From Bradyrhizobium sp. CB1650 (GTDB taxonomy: Bacteria > Pseudomonadota > Alphaproteobacteria > Rhizobiales > Xanthobacteraceae): a stretch of 64,000 bases of DNA. Made by a program: the position numbers and the translations under genes. The notes below the pieces were generated by a model. That model saw only the letters and a list, made by a program, of their open reading frames with translations, was not told the DNA's origin and did not search any database. The stretch is from positions 1,364,001-1,428,000 of the forward strand of contig NZ_CP121695.1 of NCBI RefSeq assembly GCF_029761915.1. The letters run 5' to 3'. Positions 63 to 47,257 of the stretch are shown piece by piece. Every line of letters begins with the position of its first letter. Within the stretch, counting starts at the first letter, position 1.

Positions 63-2501
63 ATGCTGAACCTCGCGGAATACCGCAACCGGCCCCATAG
101 CCTCGCCGACTTCTTGCCTTGGGCCGCTTTGGTCGAGAAAGGCGTCGTCCTCAACAAGGACGGCGCGTTCCAGCGCACGGCGCGTTTTCGTGGTCCGGAC
201 CTCGACAGCGCAACGCCTGCCGAGCTCGTCAGCGTGACAGCCCGCCTCAACAACGCACTCCGCCGTCTCGGCTCAGGTTGGGCGATCTTCGTCGAAGCCC
301 AGCGCATCGCCGCCCAGACTTATCCGCACAACATGTTCCCTGATGCAGCATCAGCGCTGGTCGATCTGGAGCGACGTGACGCTTTCGAGGAGGCGGGAGC
401 CCATTTCGAGAGTCGCTATTTCCTGACCTTCGTCTGGCTCCCGCCGGCTGAGGACGTCTCGCGCATCGAGGGCTGGCTCTATGAGGGCCGCGCGCAGGGC
501 GGCGTCGATCCTCATGAGCTGCTGCGCGGCTTCGTCGATCGGACCAACCGCGTCCTGCAACTGGTCGAAGGGTTCATGCCCGAAGTGGCATGGCTGGATG
601 ACAGCGAGACGCTGACCTACCTGCATTCGACCATCTCCACCCGGCAACAGCGGGTCCGCGTTCCCGAGACGCCGATGCATCTCGACGCGCTGCTCGCGGA
701 CGAGCCGCTCGCCGGCGGTCTCGAGCCGCGCCTCGGCAGCCACCACCTTCGCACGCTCACCGTGGTCGGCTTTCCGACCGCGACCTATCCCGGAATCCTG
801 GACGAGCTCAACCGGCTTGCCTTCCCGTACCGTTGGTCGACGCGCGCGATCCTCCTCGACAAGACCGAGGCGGTGAAGCTGCTGACCAGGATCCGCCGGC
901 AGTGGTTCGCCAAGCGGAAGTCAATCGCGGCCATCGTCAAGGAGGTGATGACGAATGAGGCCTCGACACTGGTCGATAGCGATGCGGCGAACAAGGCCGC
1001 CGATGCCGACCTCGCTTTGCAGGAACTCGGCACCGACAACGTCGGCCAGGCCTACGTCACCGCGACCGTCACCGTCTGGGACGAGGATCCCGGTGTTGCC
1101 GCCGAGAAGCTTCGCCTCATCGAGAAGGTGATCCAGGGGCGCGACTTCACCTGCATGCCGGAAGGGGTGAATGCGCTCGAAGCCTGGCTCGGCTCCCTGC
1201 CGGGGCACGCCTACGCCAACGTCCGCCAGCCGCCGCTCTCGACGTTGAACCTGGCCCACATGATCCCGCTGTCGGCGATCTGGGCCGGGCCAGACCGCGA
1301 TGAGCATTTCCGCAGCTCCCCGCTGTTCTTCGGCAAGACCGAGGGCTCGACGCCGTTCCGCTTTTCGCTGCATGTCGGAGATGTCGGCCACACCCTGATC
1401 GTTGGCCCGACCGGAGCCGGCAAGTCCGTGTTGCTTGCGCTGATGGCGATCCAGTTTCGCCGCTACCGGAAGAGCCAGATCTTCGCCTTCGATTTCGGCG
1501 GTTCGATCCGCACCGCGGCGCTTGCCATGGGTGGCGACTGGCACGACCTCGGCGGAAGCTTGTCCAACAGCGCGGAGGACTCTGTCTCTCTTCAACCACT
1601 CGCGCGTATCGGCGATGCGGCGGAGCGCGCCTGGGCCGCCGAATGGGTGACCGCGATCCTTGCCAAGGAAGGCGTCACCATCGATCCGACCGTGAAGGAG
1701 CACGTCTGGTCGGCGCTGACCTCGCTGGCTTCCTCGCCGGTCGAGGAACGCACGATCACCGGACTGACCGTCCTGTTGCAATCGACAGCGCTCAAGCAGG
1801 CGCTGCAACCTTACTGCGTCGGCGGCGCGTCCGGCCGCCTTCTCGACGCGGAGGCCGAGCAACTCGGTTTTGCATCGGTGCAGGCGTTCGAGACCGAGGG
1901 CTTGATCGGCGCTGGAGCTGCGCCTGCCGTCCTCACCTACCTCTTCCATCGCATCGAGGGACGGCTCGACGGCCGACCGACCCTCCTCATCATCGACGAG
2001 GGTTGGCTCGTCCTCGACGATCCGGCCTTTGCGCAACAGCTCAGGGAGTGGCTAAAGACCCTCCGAAAGAAGAACGCGTCTGTCGTCTTCGCCACCCAAT
2101 CGCTTTCCGACATCGACGGCAGCAATATCGCACCCGCAATCGTCGAGAGCTGCCCGACGCGGATCTTCCTGCCGAACGAGCGCGCGATCGAACCGCAGAT
2201 CACCGCCATCTACCAGCGGTTCGGTCTGAACGATCGCCAGATCGAGATCATCGCGCGGGCGACGCCGAAGCGGGACTATTACTGCCAGTCCCGCCGCGGC
2301 AATCGGCTCTTTGAACTCGGCCTCGGGCCGGTCGCGCTCGCTTTCTGCGCTGCGTCCTCCAAGGCTGACCATGCCGCCATCGAGCGGCTGCTTGCCGAGT
2401 ACGGCCACGACAACTTCACGGCTGCCTGGCTGGCTGATCATGAGCTGCTCTGGGCCGCTGATCTCATCCCCGACCTGACCAACCTGGAGGTACAATCATG
2501 A
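63..2501 (+). CDS. trbE: TrbE conjugal transfer ATPase (VirB4 family)
   Basis: VirB4-type ATPase that powers assembly of the conjugative type IV secretion channel at the inner membrane. At 812 residues it is full length for the family. Walker A (GPTGAGKS) lies at residues 448-455 and Walker B (LLIIDE) at about 641-646, with the usual VirB4 C-terminal region after it. The N-terminal 200 residues match the TrbE membrane/assembly part. Start ATG follows the trbD stop by 7 bases; the stop overlaps the trbJ start by 4 bases (ATGA), so translation is probably coupled. No frameshift or missing motif is seen. Several long antisense frames on this gene are shadows of its high GC content. Confidence 0.97.
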   Translation: MLNLAEYRNRPHSLADFLPWAALVEKGVVLNKDGAFQRTARFRGPDLDSATPAELVSVTARLNNALRRLGSGWAIFVEAQRIAAQTYPHNMFPDAASALVDLERRDAFEEAGAHFESRYFLTFVWLPPAEDVSRIEGWLYEGRAQGGVDPHELLRGFVDRTNRVLQLVEGFMPEVAWLDDSETLTYLHSTISTRQQRVRVPETPMHLDALLADEPLAGGLEPRLGSHHLRTLTVVGFPTATYPGILDELNRLAFPYRWSTRAILLDKTEAVKLLTRIRRQWFAKRKSIAAIVKEVMTNEASTLVDSDAANKAADADLALQELGTDNVGQAYVTATVTVWDEDPGVAAEKLRLIEKVIQGRDFTCMPEGVNALEAWLGSLPGHAYANVRQPPLSTLNLAHMIPLSAIWAGPDRDEHFRSSPLFFGKTEGSTPFRFSLHVGDVGHTLIVGPTGAGKSVLLALMAIQFRRYRKSQIFAFDFGGSIRTAALAMGGDWHDLGGSLSNSAEDSVSLQPLARIGDAAERAWAAEWVTAILAKEGVTIDPTVKEHVWSALTSLASSPVEERTITGLTVLLQSTALKQALQPYCVGGASGRLLDAEAEQLGFASVQAFETEGLIGAGAAPAVLTYLFHRIEGRLDGRPTLLIIDEGWLVLDDPAFAQQLREWLKTLRKKNASVVFATQSLSDIDGSNIAPAIVESCPTRIFLPNERAIEPQITAIYQRFGLNDRQIEIIARATPKRDYYCQSRRGNRLFELGLGPVALAFCAASSKADHAAIERLLAEYGHDNFTAAWLADHELLWAADLIPDLTNLEVQS

Positions 2502-3256
2502 TCGCCCTTAAGACCCGGCGCGCTGGGTTGCCCGCTGTGACCGCTCTCTCGCTCGCCTTGTCGATCTCGCCGCTCTTAATGCGGGCGGCGTGCGCGCAGT
2601 GGATCGTCTACGACCCCTCCAATTTCAGTCAGAACGTGCTGACCGCCGCGCGCGAGCTGCAGCAGATCAACAACCAGATTCAGATGCTGAACAATCAGGC
2701 CCAGAGCCTGGTGAACCAGGGAAAGAACCTCGCCAACCTGCCGTTGTCGACGCTGACCCAGCTTCAGTCGTCGATTGCTCAGACCCAGTCGCTGCTGAGC
2801 CAAGCCCAGAACATCGCCTTCAACGTCGAGCGCATCCAGACGGCGTATTCTAGTGTCTACGGCACGGCGGCGGCCTCGGGCTCCAACGCCACAATGTTTG
2901 CCGCAGCTCAAAGCCGTTGGCAGAACTCGGTGGGCGCCTTCGAAGACTCGCTGAAGGTGCAGGCCGGCGTTGTCGGCAATATCTCGAGCAACTCCAGCGC
3001 AATGAGCTCGCTGGTCACTGCGAGCCAGTCGGCAAGTGGCGCCCTGCAGGCGGCTCAGGCCGGTAACCAGCTCCTCGCCCTGCAATCCCAGCAGCTTTCC
3101 GACCTTGTCGCGGTTCTCGCCGCAAAGGGGAGGGCGGACGCGCTGGAGCAGGCGCGCGTGACCGCGACCGAATCCCAGGGCCAGCAGCAATACAAGATCT
3201 TCTCGACGCGCAACGGCTATCAGCCCGGCAACGTCACCATGTTCAGCGGCAACTGA
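2498..3256 (+). CDS. trbJ: TrbJ conjugal transfer protein (VirB5-like)
   Basis: Periplasmic/pilus-associated component of the mating-pair formation system. Residues 1-33 form a signal peptide with an Ala-Cys-Ala cleavage site, and the mature protein is Gln- and Asn-rich with long heptad-like helices (residues about 45-110), typical of TrbJ/VirB5 proteins. Length 252 is normal. The start overlaps the trbE stop by 4 bases. It lies between trbE and trbK as in rhizobial trb operons. Confidence 0.95.
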   Translation: MIALKTRRAGLPAVTALSLALSISPLLMRAACAQWIVYDPSNFSQNVLTAARELQQINNQIQMLNNQAQSLVNQGKNLANLPLSTLTQLQSSIAQTQSLLSQAQNIAFNVERIQTAYSSVYGTAAASGSNATMFAAAQSRWQNSVGAFEDSLKVQAGVVGNISSNSSAMSSLVTASQSASGALQAAQAGNQLLALQSQQLSDLVAVLAAKGRADALEQARVTATESQGQQQYKIFSTRNGYQPGNVTMFSGN

Positions 3257-3266
3257 GGCTTGGGCC

Positions 3267-3587
3267 ATGGAGCGCTCGGATATTCTTCGCGCAGGCGCGA
3301 TGATCATCGTGTTCGCGATTTTCCTTGCCGCGCTGCACGTCATCCATCGGCGTCCGGTGGAACGGCCCGTATCCGACGCCCCCTCTGCCTCCACTCCTGA
3401 TGACCTCTCGGCCGAGCTGCTCCGCTGCGCCGAGCTTGGACCCCAGGATGCCGAAGATCCGCACTGCCAGGCGGTTTGGAAGGAGAACCGCGCGCGCTTC
3501 TTCGGCAGGCCGGCGCGGCCACTTCTGCCGCAGGCCGCGCCGGCCACACCGCCGACGACGAGCGCTCCGCAGGGAGAAAAGCCATGA
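3267..3587 (+). CDS. trbK: TrbK-type putative entry-exclusion protein
   Basis: Small (106 aa) protein with one N-terminal membrane segment (about residues 9-27), then a periplasmic part with two conserved-looking cysteines and the pattern Cys-x5-...-Cys-x3-Trp-x-Glu-Asn-Arg-x-Arg-Phe-Phe. This is the arrangement of the alternative TrbK family that sits between trbJ and trbL in rhizobial elements, where it is assigned to entry exclusion. Its stop codon overlaps the trbL start by 4 bases. Confidence 0.85.
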   Translation: MERSDILRAGAMIIVFAIFLAALHVIHRRPVERPVSDAPSASTPDDLSAELLRCAELGPQDAEDPHCQAVWKENRARFFGRPARPLLPQAAPATPPTTSAPQGEKP

Positions 3588-43720: not shown

Positions 43721-44582
43721 CCTTGAGATATTGGGACTGTTGGAGCTTGCCCAGGGGCGCCGCGAGGACTTCCCCGGGACGAAGCGCGGGCCATTGGTGA
43801 GCTTGATCAGCGTTGCAATCCGGTGGATCGCTGGCTTCGGGCGCAGGTCGCTGCTGCTCGTAGCCCTGCTGGTGGCATGGGAGGCGGCTCCGAGGTTCGG
43901 CCTGATTGATCCGGTATTTCTGCCGCCGTTTTCGGAGGTGATGACAGCAGGCTGGCAGCTCGCGCAAACCGGCGAGCTCTATGATGACGTCTCCGCCAGC
44001 CTCCTGCGCGCGTTGAGCGGCTTCTTGATATCGGTCGCCTTGATCGTGCCTCTTGGTCTGGCGGTCGGCAGGTCAGCCCGGCTCGGCGATCTCTTGAACC
44101 CGTTTTTCGAAGTGTGCCGCAACACCGCTCCTCTTGCGCTATTGCCGGTGTTCATCCTGCTGCTTGGGATTGGCGAACTGTCAAGGATCACGATGGTGAT
44201 CTATAGCTGCGCCTGGCCGCTTCTGCTCAACACGGTCGCCGCTGTGAAGCAGGTCGATCCGCTGCTGATCAAGTCGGCGCGCACCATGGGGGCCACCCCG
44301 CAGCAACTGTTCCGCAAGGTGATCCTTCCGGCTGCGCTTCCCACCATCTTTGTCGGTATTCGCCTGGCCAGCGCATCCGCGATGCTGGTCCTCGTTGCCT
44401 CCGAAATGGTCGGCGCCAAGGCGGGCCTCGGCTATCTCATCATCAACAGCCAGTACAGCTTCCTGATCCCACAAATGTACTTCGGCATTCTCGGCATCAC
44501 GGTCATTGGCCTGACGTTCAACGCCATCCTCGAGGCGCTGGAGCGGCGTCTGATGCGCTGGAAGAGCCCGGCAACAGCCTAG
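43713..44582 (+). CDS. sulfonate-type ABC transporter permease
   Basis: A 289-aa permease of the SsuC/TauC group: about six membrane segments from residue 45, with the EAA-type loop [20 protein letters not shown] near residue 190. It starts at an ATG overlapping the ATPase stop by 8 bases and ends in a 4-base convergent overlap with the broken cysE gene. It completes the tauD-binding protein-ATPase-permease operon. Confidence 0.94.
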
Positions 44583-44932
44583 CCGGGCTTGTTGCGGGCT
44601 GTGGCCTGCCTCACCATGCTGTTCGGCGGCACGTCCTGGGTCAGCCAGACATTGCCGCCGATCGTCGATCCGCGGCCGATGGTGATCCGACCCAAAATGG
44701 TGGCGCCAGCATAGATGACGACGTCGTCTTCCACGATTGGGTGGCGGGCATCGCCCTTGATCAAATTGCCTTCGTCATCGGTCGGAAAGTGCCGGGCGCC
44801 GAGCGTGACGGCCCGGTAGATGCGAACATTGTCCCCGATGATGGCGGTCTCGCCGATGACGACGCCGGTCCCGTGGTCGATGAAGAAGCCTGACCCGATG
44901 CTGGCGCCGGGATGAATGTCAATGCCGGTCCT
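44579..44932 (-). pseudogene. cysE: serine acetyltransferase, 3' part (split gene)
   Basis: The C-terminal left-handed beta-helix of serine O-acetyltransferase: [53 protein letters not shown] and [20 protein letters not shown]. Active-site His and Asp of the SFFIDHG region are present. It lacks the N-terminal helical domain, which is found in the same orientation at 46633-47217 on the other side of a 1.7-kb insertion. The few codons upstream in the frame derive from the insertion's end, so no functional protein is expected. Confidence 0.92.
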
Positions 44933-44934
44933 AG

Positions 44935-44962
44935 TACTTCTGCACAGAGGTTTTGACGGGTT
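44935..44962 (+). repeat. left terminal inverted repeat of the cassette
   Basis: TAC-T-TCTGCACAGAGG followed by TTTTGACGGGTT. The inner 23 bases (44940-44962) match the reverse complement of 46605-46627 exactly; one mismatch falls 3 bases further out. Confidence 0.9.
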
Positions 44963-45038
44963 ATCTGATCGAACCGCCTTGCATCTGTCAGCCAAAATGA
45001 GGCGCAGGAGCGCACAACCGGGTTTGCCCGAGTCCGCC

Positions 45039-45118
45039 GACTTGCACGGTGCAGCAAGCCGGCAGCTATCTGGGGTACAGCAGCCGTGGCGCTAACGCAT
45101 TCGGAAAGGCAGCCCGCG
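45039..45118 (+). repeat. imperfect direct repeat, copy 1
   Basis: An 80-bp stretch inside the left end of the cassette, similar to 46451-46530 in the same orientation, with a shared exact 21-bp core at 45061-45081 (GGCAGCTATC TGGGGTACAG plus C) and matching outer ends (GACTTGC and GGCAGCCCG). Confidence 0.75.
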
Positions 45119-45275
45119 ACCCAACTCTGACATCTGCCTGCCCTCGCAGAGCCTCAGTCGTGTTCTGAGCGCTTGTCGCTCCAACGGCAGGTCGAGAAAC
45201 GTATGGCCCGGTGTCTGTCTGTAACCCATGCTTCCAGTCAACTCCGAAAGGCCCACGTTTCTGACTGTGCCGCGA

Positions 45276-46307
45276 CTATGGCAGGTGAATTGGAGGCAAG
45301 ACTGCGAAGACCAACATGGCGACAGCGAGGATCGCCACAACGTAACCGAGCGAGGTGTTAAGCGCCGCAAACAGATCGTGGGGAGGTTCGGTCACGTTCG
45401 ATGCGATGCGAATATCGGGCCCACTCCGATCGCCGGGCGAAATACTTGTTTGCGATCGCGTTGCGGCCGCTCTTCGCGTGAAGAAGAGGTACAACAAATA
45501 GGCGTCGATCAAAATTGTGACGGCCAGCACGACATAGGCCCGCGGGCTCTCAATCAAGTTCAGCTCGATCAAGACCCGGGAGAAACCGAACCCCACGACC
45601 CACGCATCAAAGCTCATGCATATCCGACGAAACGTCTCGGCATCGAGATGCCGGATGACATAAGCGCCGAGCGGTACTCCAACCGCCACGCAGGGAACAA
45701 ACACCCACAAGAGACTTCCGCTTTCGGCCGTAAACAGGCCAAGCTGGTAATAGACGATGGCGGTCACGCTCGACTCGGCCACGCGAACCAATGCGAGACC
45801 GGCCCGAAACTCGGTTTTGACCAGACCTTGATTGTTGAACAGAATCGCCAACGGCGGTCCCGAGATGGTGGTGACCGAATACAGGACGCCGAGCGCGGCT
45901 CCAAAGGGAAGACCGACCAGCCAGGTCGACCGAATTGGTCTCCGCCAACCGGCGGCCTGGACGAGGATGAGAGGTAGAATGAGTATGTAGGTCCCGAGTT
46001 TGATCCAGCCTGGCTCAACCGAAGTGAGAACCCAAGCTCCGATTCCGATGCCGGGCAGGAGCCCAGTGATGATTGGAAACACCCTTTTCCATACCGCTGC
46101 AACACCCTTCAGATTGATGCATAAAACGTAGAAGTTGGTGACGACCTCGACCAGGACGACGGCGGGATTCAGGACGCGATTTGTATAGAAAACGAGAGCC
46201 AACGGCACAGTGAGCGAGGAAAACCCATAGCCAAGAGCGCCATTTATGAAGGCCGCAAACAAAGCGATCCCGGCGAGGACGATCACCGCAGTATCAAGAG
46301 AAGGCAT
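45276..46307 (-). CDS. TauE/SafE-family sulfite/sulfonate exporter
   Basis: A 343-aa membrane protein with about eight or nine hydrophobic segments. GYGFSSLTVPLALVF near residue 30 and SVTTISGPPLAILFNNQGL near residue 140 match the two repeated TauE/SafE half-domains. I chose the ATG at 46307, which has GGAGAA 7 bases upstream; an in-frame ATG 12 codons earlier lacks this. TauE/SafE proteins export sulfite, sulfoacetate or related anions. It is the only cargo of the insertion in cysE and faces the same way as cysE. The C-terminal 60 residues form an extra soluble stretch and a last membrane segment. Confidence 0.88.
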   Translation of the reverse strand: MPSLDTAVIVLAGIALFAAFINGALGYGFSSLTVPLALVFYTNRVLNPAVVLVEVVTNFYVLCINLKGVAAVWKRVFPIITGLLPGIGIGAWVLTSVEPGWIKLGTYILILPLILVQAAGWRRPIRSTWLVGLPFGAALGVLYSVTTISGPPLAILFNNQGLVKTEFRAGLALVRVAESSVTAIVYYQLGLFTAESGSLLWVFVPCVAVGVPLGAYVIRHLDAETFRRICMSFDAWVVGFGFSRVLIELNLIESPRAYVVLAVTILIDAYLLYLFFTRRAAATRSQTSISPGDRSGPDIRIASNVTEPPHDLFAALNTSLGYVVAILAVAMLVFAVLPPIHLP

Positions 46308-46450
46308 CGTTGACTTCTCCAATTGCCTTAAAGTGTCGCCCACGGCGCGGCCGACCTATCCTACCACTTTCAACGGTCTATTTGCAGATTGGAACCCTGC
46401 CGTGTCCACCCGTCTCAGCCCGCCATCGCCGCAAGTGGCCCAGGGCTGTC

Positions 46451-46530
46451 GACTTGCGGCGTTGCATCAAGTCGGCAGCTATCTGGGGTACAGCGGCCAT
46501 CAAATCAACGTAGCGTCAGGGCAGCCCGTG
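46451..46530 (+). repeat. imperfect direct repeat, copy 2
   Basis: Second copy of the 80-bp direct repeat, upstream of the TauE gene; exact core at 46474-46494. The two copies bracket the exporter gene. Confidence 0.75.
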
Positions 46531-46604
46531 GCCCATGCAGTCCATCCAAGGCAGACTGCCTGTCACAGAACCCAGAGTCAGGGACCCAGCAATGCTGCCC
46601 CGCC

Positions 46605-46632
46605 AACCCGTCAAAACCTCTGTGCAGAGGTA
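46605..46632 (-). repeat. right terminal inverted repeat of the cassette
   Basis: Reverse complement of the left repeat with one mismatch; the inner 23 bases are identical. Confidence 0.9.
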
Positions 46633-47217
46633 TTAATACGGGGCAATCTCGGCAACCAACCTCGCAATCAGTCGCGCGCCGAGCCGATAGAGCAGGTGCG
46701 CTAGGCGATGGTGGATGACCGCGCCCATTCCGGGATAGCCGATCAGGAACTCCGGAAAATTCCTAGCGGCGCGATCGCCAACAAAGGCGGCCCTGAGATC
46801 GCTGATGAGAAGTCCGCGCACGGCGGGCAGTTGCGAGGCGAAAGTCCGCGTCAATTCGTCCTCGCGCCGAAAGCCAGGTATGAGCTCGTCGCCGAGAGCG
46901 CCGCGATGGAACTGCTCGCACAGTGCGTCCAGGACAACGCTCAGCGTATTGCCCACAAAGTAATCGATATTCTCGCCGTCGAGCTCGGACCGACCGTAGT
47001 GACGTGGGAACAGCGCCTCGGTGAGGCCGTTGAGAATTGCTTCGAAGACCTCCCGTGAGGGCGGCCCCCGTGCTTCACCATCCCTGCGAATGCTGTGGGT
47101 TTCCTCCTGGGAGACACGCAAGTCGGCGACGATCCGGTCGAGCTGCCAGCGCTTCTACGTCGGCTCGCGATCCGATGCTGTACGATCAGGGGTGGCCTGC
47201 GGAATTTCTCGTTTCAT
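46633..47217 (-). pseudogene. cysE: serine acetyltransferase, 5' part (split, with in-frame stop)
   Basis: The N-terminal helical domain of an EpsC/CysE-type serine acetyltransferase: HSIRRDGEARGPPSREVFEA, IDYFVGNTLSVVLDALCEQF, DLRAAFVGDRAARNFPEFLI and YPGMGAVIHHRLAHLLYRLG, ending at RLVAEIA where the cassette begins. The natural start appears to be the ATG at 47217. In that frame codon 21 is TAG (47157-47155), followed by KRWQLDRIVADLRVSQEE, which is homologous sequence. The gene is therefore broken twice: a nonsense codon and an insertion. Confidence 0.88.
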
Positions 47218-47257
47218 GCGGCTCTCGCTCAATTCGCTCGCCGAGGGTTGACTCTCG

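Follow-up and report, generated by a model that had tools for sequence, protein, structure and literature searches.

A probable IS630-type mobile insertion cassette in a cysE-type gene of Bradyrhizobium

Introduction

In one Bradyrhizobium genome, a cysE-type gene is split by 1698 bp of DNA (44935-46632) that carry a TauE/SafE-family gene between inverted terminal repeats. What kind of DNA is this, and how did it come to lie within the gene? Positions given here are those of the window, the whole 64,000-nt stretch that was analyzed, which corresponds to 1364001-1428000 of a single 9.43-Mb contig. The locus around the insert looks like a taurine/sulfonate locus: the best NCBIfam matches of the neighboring genes are to a taurine dioxygenase, the SsuA family, taurine and sulfonate ABC subunits, and the SfnB family, every one of these best scores being below its curated cut-off.

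A first-pass annotation had proposed that the insert is a mobile insertion cassette and might represent a new cassette family. The class that it proposed fits, and the cognate IS family can now be named as IS630, from an element elsewhere that has both such ends and a transposase gene. We consider the insert to be very probably a non-autonomous, gene-carrying element of the IS630 (Tc1/mariner-like) type, because of its ends and anatomy, the uninterrupted orthologues of the gene that it splits, the modules that it shares with other cassettes, and the existence of IS630-type elements with matching ends. The most interesting feature of its family is the replacement of cargo between direct repeats.

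An insert within a cysE-type gene

As the first-pass annotation had claimed, both pieces of the cysE-type gene lie in the same orientation on either side of the insert. They match consecutive parts of the TIGR01172 profile (Table 1), which means that the halves abut at the insertion. When Bradyrhizobium was searched with the N-terminal half, 69 of 257 genomes matched; of the 30 loci fetched, one belongs to the window genome and 29 to other genomes. In all 29 the cysE halves are contiguous. These relatives have an empty cysE site, and none of the 29 fetched loci holds the 1.7 kb as ancestral sequence.

The C-terminal half is 84-90% identical at the DNA level to these orthologues. Compared with three of these relatives, the N-terminal half (46633-47220) shows a stop codon in frame upstream, together with small in-frame losses; the gene thus appears nonfunctional, regardless of whether the insertion inactivated it. 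An intact cysE is found elsewhere in the genome, at 3969731 (228.9 bits against a family cut-off of 210.65).

Table 1. Coordinates of the insert's features and of the flanking gene pieces in the window
Feature	Position	Strand	Remarks
cysE-type gene, C-terminal half	44579..44934	-	TIGR01172 positions 57-157; Hexapep repeat
Left-flank TA	44932..44933	.	within CTAG 44931-44934; left copy of presumed target duplication
Left terminal inverted repeat	44935..44962	+	28 bp
Left end module	44935..45123	+	conserved in other cassettes, ends ...GACCCA (alignments)
Direct repeat, left copy	45024..45123	+	start approximate
Cargo TauE/SafE-family gene, intact, 343 aa	45276..46307	-	PF01925, E 4.3e-23; ATG at 46307
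Direct repeat, right copy	46436..46535	+	orientation as left copy
Right end module	46436..46632	-	conserved in other cassettes (alignments; matches in other genomes)
Right terminal inverted repeat	46605..46632	-	28 bp
cysE-type gene, N-terminal half	46633..47121	-	TIGR01172 positions 3-56; homology continues upstream past in-frame stop
Right-flank TA	46634..46635	.	surrounding TTAA, not CTAG; right copy of presumed target duplication

Elements of the IS630 family insert at TA and duplicate it (PMC2170065), and a preference for the TA in CTAG is reported in the title of a paper in that article's reference list. Whatever meaning the annotation saw in a sulfur exporter lying within a sulfur locus is hypothetical: related cassettes carry very varied cargo, and the insertion point in cysE fits a CTAG-type target. 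The insert is flanked by CTAG on the left and by TTAATAC on the right, and the TA found on both sides is therefore all that can be seen of a duplication, which is weak evidence by itself. When the flanks are joined at one TA, cysE is one base out of frame relative to its relatives; either the junction sequence has drifted since, or the gene was defective beforehand.

The two terminal inverted repeats are identical at 27 of 28 positions, in agreement with the single mismatch annotated earlier. With up to 3 mismatches allowed, a 25-base end pattern has two matches in the window, and 100 dinucleotide shuffles gave none; when the whole 9.43-Mb genome was scanned with two related end patterns at the same tolerance, only the two ends of the insert matched. 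The cargo is flanked by an ~100-bp direct repeat, one copy beside each end, a feature that the annotation did not contain. Apart from the terminal repeat, which is inverted, and the direct repeat, the left and right end modules have nothing in common. A composite transposon was considered and rejected, because the ends are neither two copies of an IS nor two copies of one whole element.

It had also been claimed that the insert holds an exporter-type gene and no transposase gene. This description holds: the family scan recognized the TauE/SafE gene (PF01925) alone, no transposase was recognized by eye in the list of open reading frames (ORFs), and the remaining ORFs listed for the insert, which were judged by eye alone, overlap the TauE gene or the ends. 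Scans for promoters and terminators yielded 1 and 4 candidates, respectively, against 0.6 and 2.2 expected.

The TauE-family protein matched no NCBIfam model at E <= 0.001 and no PDB entry by sequence. Related genes in three genomes (G052, G093, and G017; G and L numbers here designate genomes and loci) match the element only within its positions 231-1468, at 83-87% identity, which indicates that this cargo occurs in relatives without the modules or the ends. Comparison of the window gene with the G052 copy gives a dN/dS of 0.23 over 342 codons, and the other copies used give 0.11-0.29. These ratios suggest that selection maintained the gene during most of the divergence, which does not imply selection inside the cassette.

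Ends shared with IS630-type elements

The ends of the insert also occur in other genomes. An exact 22-base end scan of genome contigs yielded 7 stretches, and a genus-level search with a 32-base pattern of CTAG plus end found matches, at no more than 3 mismatches, in 19 of 265 genomes, the window genome included. The corresponding order-level search matched none of 396 other genomes, 14 of which are Bradyrhizobium, and a plasmid collection gave only short matches, in 1 and 3 records. Most related ends abut CTAG. Other bases were seen at the right end in the window (TTAA), at the two ends in G214 (CCAG), and at single ends of L048, L098, and L054 (CGAG or TTAG).

Some of these ends belong to full-length IS elements, as the annotation had anticipated. 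At L088, an element spanning 1909-3406 has such ends with CTAG on both sides. It codes for a 390-aa protein that matches the IS630 transposase model NF033545 with 250.6 bits (cut-off 100) and also matches PF13358, and it holds a 111-aa helix-turn-helix ORF as well. Related transposase genes also lie in elements of 1.3-1.5 kb that have such an end on either side, in G036, G275, G042, and G335, the gene being broken in two of them (by one stop in G042, and in G335). What the window insert has in common with the IS630-type elements is the first 23-29 bases. Its right module matches an IS element of G211 over the first 29 bp only and does not match it beyond the terminal repeat.

When 23 genomes were searched with the L088-type transposase at E <= 1e-20, 15 matched, the window genome among them by nothing more than a fragment with stops. 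With this one query, the window genome yielded only fragments, and most of the best of these contain stops. Among the other cassette-bearing genomes, G070, G214, and G299 matched at this threshold, and no match was found in G222, G274, G238, G246, G330, G290, or G053. A separate observation concerns Bradyrhizobium genome G095, where 51 matches to this transposase, mostly 71-72% identical, look like an apparent burst of an element related to the L088 type.

A transposase gene is missing, too, from two short elements that have such ends and are flanked by CTAG on either side. One of 870 bp (L099, in G053) carries a hexapeptide acetyltransferase gene, and another, in a Reyranella MAG (L035), codes for a CoaD-like protein that scores below its family cut-off; no direct repeat was recognized in either. 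An identical end with the same flank is found at four loci of Sphingomonadales and MAG contigs (L033, L036, L037, and L038), and L034 has a different flank. The unit at these four loci runs toward a putative alkane-monooxygenase-like ORF, and a second end was not found.

Conserved modules and changing cargo

The alignment comprised ten modules from either side, taken from the window, G070 (two), G214, G274, G222, G238 (two), G299, and G246; the ends of the first G070 element are on separate contigs and may belong to two copies. Elements in G330, G290, G292, G250, G253, and G032 are partial or doubtful and were excluded from the family counts. The modules are about 190 bp long on the left and 200 bp on the right, and each holds an ~100-bp direct repeat. 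Identity ranges from 62% to 94% among left modules and from 66% to 96% among right modules, and the two sets group alike.

The DNA between the modules is a different matter. When twelve cargo pieces were compared (those of the ten aligned cassettes plus G050 and G053), only G214 and G222 shared anything, namely 116 bp at 74% identity and an overlapping 52 bp. By Pfam, the cargo is TauE in the window, Acyl_transf_3 in G214, Rrf2 and a methyltransferase in G274, a methyltransferase and GNAT in G246, Acyl_transf_3 with an AraC-type protein in the first G238 cassette, and a member of the dienelactone-hydrolase family in the second. The G222 cargo includes a PF00144 serine hydrolase, a phage-integrase-type piece, and two further ORFs, one of 179 aa that had no match and one of 481 aa that is putatively transposase-like; that of G070 consists of 419-aa and 328-aa ORFs without a match. 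The G299 cassette codes for a 666-aa protein with HTH and DDE_3 matches and hence is not transposase-free. A 2.0-kb element in G050 (L048 7670-9669) has the right module, genes for an ArsR-type regulator and a TauE-family protein, and another end with 6 mismatches; this second TauE-family protein is 23% identical to that of the window over 230 aligned positions. To judge from these alignments, the window insert belongs to a lineage with conserved end modules of ~200 bp, in which the cargo between the direct repeats appears to have been replaced.

The clearest view of a change of cargo comes from G299 and G246 (L176 2760-5942 and L184 2007-3257). In both cassettes the left module is missing its outer part and the right end its outermost bases, and both adjoin an ORF of 415-416 aa, of which the G299 copy was scanned with Pfam and is a tyrosine recombinase. 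Their modules are 88% alike, with at most 80% identity to other modules, and from the right module outward the two loci agree at 82.6% over 3.5 kb; only ~60 bases of left flank were available for comparison. Between the repeats no similarity was detected at E <= 1e-3, and the change of cargo falls at the inner edges of the direct repeats. We read this pair as descendants of one cassette, its IS630 ends broken beforehand, in which the cargo was probably replaced. Alternatively, each of the two may have lost different parts of a larger ancestral cargo; the recombinase unit, too, may have moved, with the result that the genomic site is possibly different. In G299, two more recombinase-like ORFs follow the first (which alone was scanned), and the three in a row are reminiscent of a recombinase trio.

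A second pair was evaluated as an exchange in place, and this reading was rejected. The cassettes of G222 and G274 (L175 1644 and L102 5028) share their orientation and their site behind a MocR-type gene, as well as a 2-bp loss in the left end, and their cargo is unrelated. The same loss is present in one end of the G050 element, so it may recur. A search for this locus matched 231 of 257 genomes, and the best 30 loci, G222 and G274 among them, were fetched. Twenty-five of the 30 are closer to G222 in the MocR-type gene (88-96%) than G274 is (87%), and all 25 are empty; of the remaining loci, L253 has the neighbor gene and no cassette, and L251 and L252 have another arrangement. Two insertions into one site are the better explanation of these sequences, and the site behind the MocR-type gene is a possible insertion hot spot.

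The paired direct repeats

Searches for the direct repeat as a dispersed sequence in the window genome found only the two cassette copies significant, with four other matches at E 0.46-0.86, and none was found in the L088 element. A known RNA was considered and rejected, the two weak matches (E 0.14 and 0.72) being below the gathering scores. Folded as DNA, the right copy has z-scores of -2.4 and -1.7 on the two strands and the left copy 0.5 and 0.3, and four copies from other loci have -4.3, -1.6, -0.3, and -3.3. RNA folds are mixed too, and such mixed scores permit no structural claim. Bradyrhizobium is described as having families of palindromic REP sequences (PMC3733652), with no relation to this repeat established.

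Repeat pairs with other outer sequences exist in G237, G330, and G064, conserved at 85-92% on the left and 88-96% on the right. Such pairs, without IS630-type ends, were observed in three Bradyrhizobium genomes (L185 5808-7516, L188 5019-13127, and L046 4845-6240), with conserved outer sequences of their own and different genes between them. In G038, two seemingly near-identical repeat copies flank a 364-aa ORF.

It is conceivable, if rather doubtful, that the paired repeats serve as a gene-capture slot, in which cargo would be precisely inserted or replaced by a site-specific process that does not involve the IS630 transposase. If true, different vehicles would carry interchangeable genes, much as in integrons but with another kind of site. 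These vehicles would be the IS630-ended cassettes, the cassette beside tandem recombinase-like genes, and a second type of element whose outer ends are different.

Alternative explanations

For the insert in cysE, we favor the following course of events. An IS630-family transposase made elsewhere would recognize the 28-bp ends and insert the cassette at the TA of a CTAG-type site, within a cysE-like gene that is the second of its kind and dispensable, in a genome that presumably once held a suitable transposase. Cargo between the two direct repeats would have been replaced within the cassette lineage by some form of exchange. We infer both the movement in trans and the TA duplication of the window copy. 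Some observations speak against a mobile insertion cassette of the IS630 type: the right flank is TTAA, the joined gene is out of frame, the genome yields only transposase fragments with the one query used, and the right module does not match the G211 IS element beyond the terminal repeat.

Might the insert instead be what is left of a once autonomous IS630-like transposon that has lost its transposase gene and retained TauE, its accessory gene? Transposase-bearing elements do have the same ends, and the DDE_3 match in the 666-aa protein of G299 could be taken the same way. However, similarity of the right module to the G211 element stops after 29 bp, L088 has no direct repeat that could be found, and cassettes with the same modules hold unrelated genes, and we regard such a remnant as unlikely. 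Still less probable is a unit placed by a recombinase that acts on the ~100-bp direct repeats in place of an IS630 transposase. In cysE the breakpoints coincide with the inverted repeats, farther out than the direct repeats, and the flanking bases are in keeping with IS630 targets, even though the G299/G246 cargo changes at the inner repeat edges beside a tyrosine-recombinase gene and repeat pairs with other outer sequences are known. Finally, much of either cysE half is an open reading frame, as it might be if the 1.7 kb were ancestral and cysE here had never been one gene; against this, all 29 fetched orthologues are contiguous and the halves abut at one profile position, which leaves the absence of any insertion with almost no credibility. 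Transposition as an IS630-type mobile insertion cassette remains by far the preferred reading.

Comparison with known systems

This cassette lineage would provide single chromosomal genes with a small route to mobility that needs no transposase of their own and is tied to a widespread transposase superfamily. Because the ends remain recognizable while the cargo changes at one exact place, how cassettes acquire cargo becomes testable. The earlier suggestion of a new cassette family stands only in part. The lineage appears new, in that no description of it was found among the open-access titles and abstract openings listed (subscription journals being mostly outside that scope), but mobile insertion cassettes as a kind are already published (PMC3913671, PMC5444012, PMC4444841, PMC3281130).

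IS231 is a member of the IS4 family. The MIC231 group of Bacillus cereus resembles the insert in having IS-type inverted repeats, a passenger gene, and no transposase, and its mobilization in trans by the IS231A transposase has been shown by activity (PMC3913671). It differs in belonging to another IS family and in this demonstrated activity, whereas the insert is known from sequence alone. Long conserved modules with direct repeats, which the insert has, are not mentioned for MIC231 in the portion of that account drawn on here. The qnrD and qnrS2 cassettes of Proteeae and Aeromonas likewise hold one gene and no transposase, between inverted repeats of 22-24 bp, with CA duplications for qnrD, and the qnrS2 cassette, like the insert, interrupts a gene (PMC3913671, PMC5444012). 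Their end sequences and cargo are different, and relatives with many cargoes are not described in the parts of those reports used here.

ISY100 and IS630 resemble the insert in their TA duplications, which in the insert are presumed, and in a reported preference for the TA in CTAG (PMC2170065), but they encode their own transposase, and the insert shows none. The TIME and TIME-COMP elements are similar in that transposase-less ends mobilize varied DNA; they belong to the Tn3 family and mostly have 5-bp duplications, in contrast with the TA-type flanks of the insert, and a TIME-COMP is a composite of two whole miniature elements (PMC4133298), whereas the insert has two different end modules. 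The likeness to integron gene cassettes is by analogy only: there, too, genes are exchanged at fixed boundaries beside a conserved repeat, but the insert, unlike those cassettes, has terminal inverted repeats and TA-type flanks.
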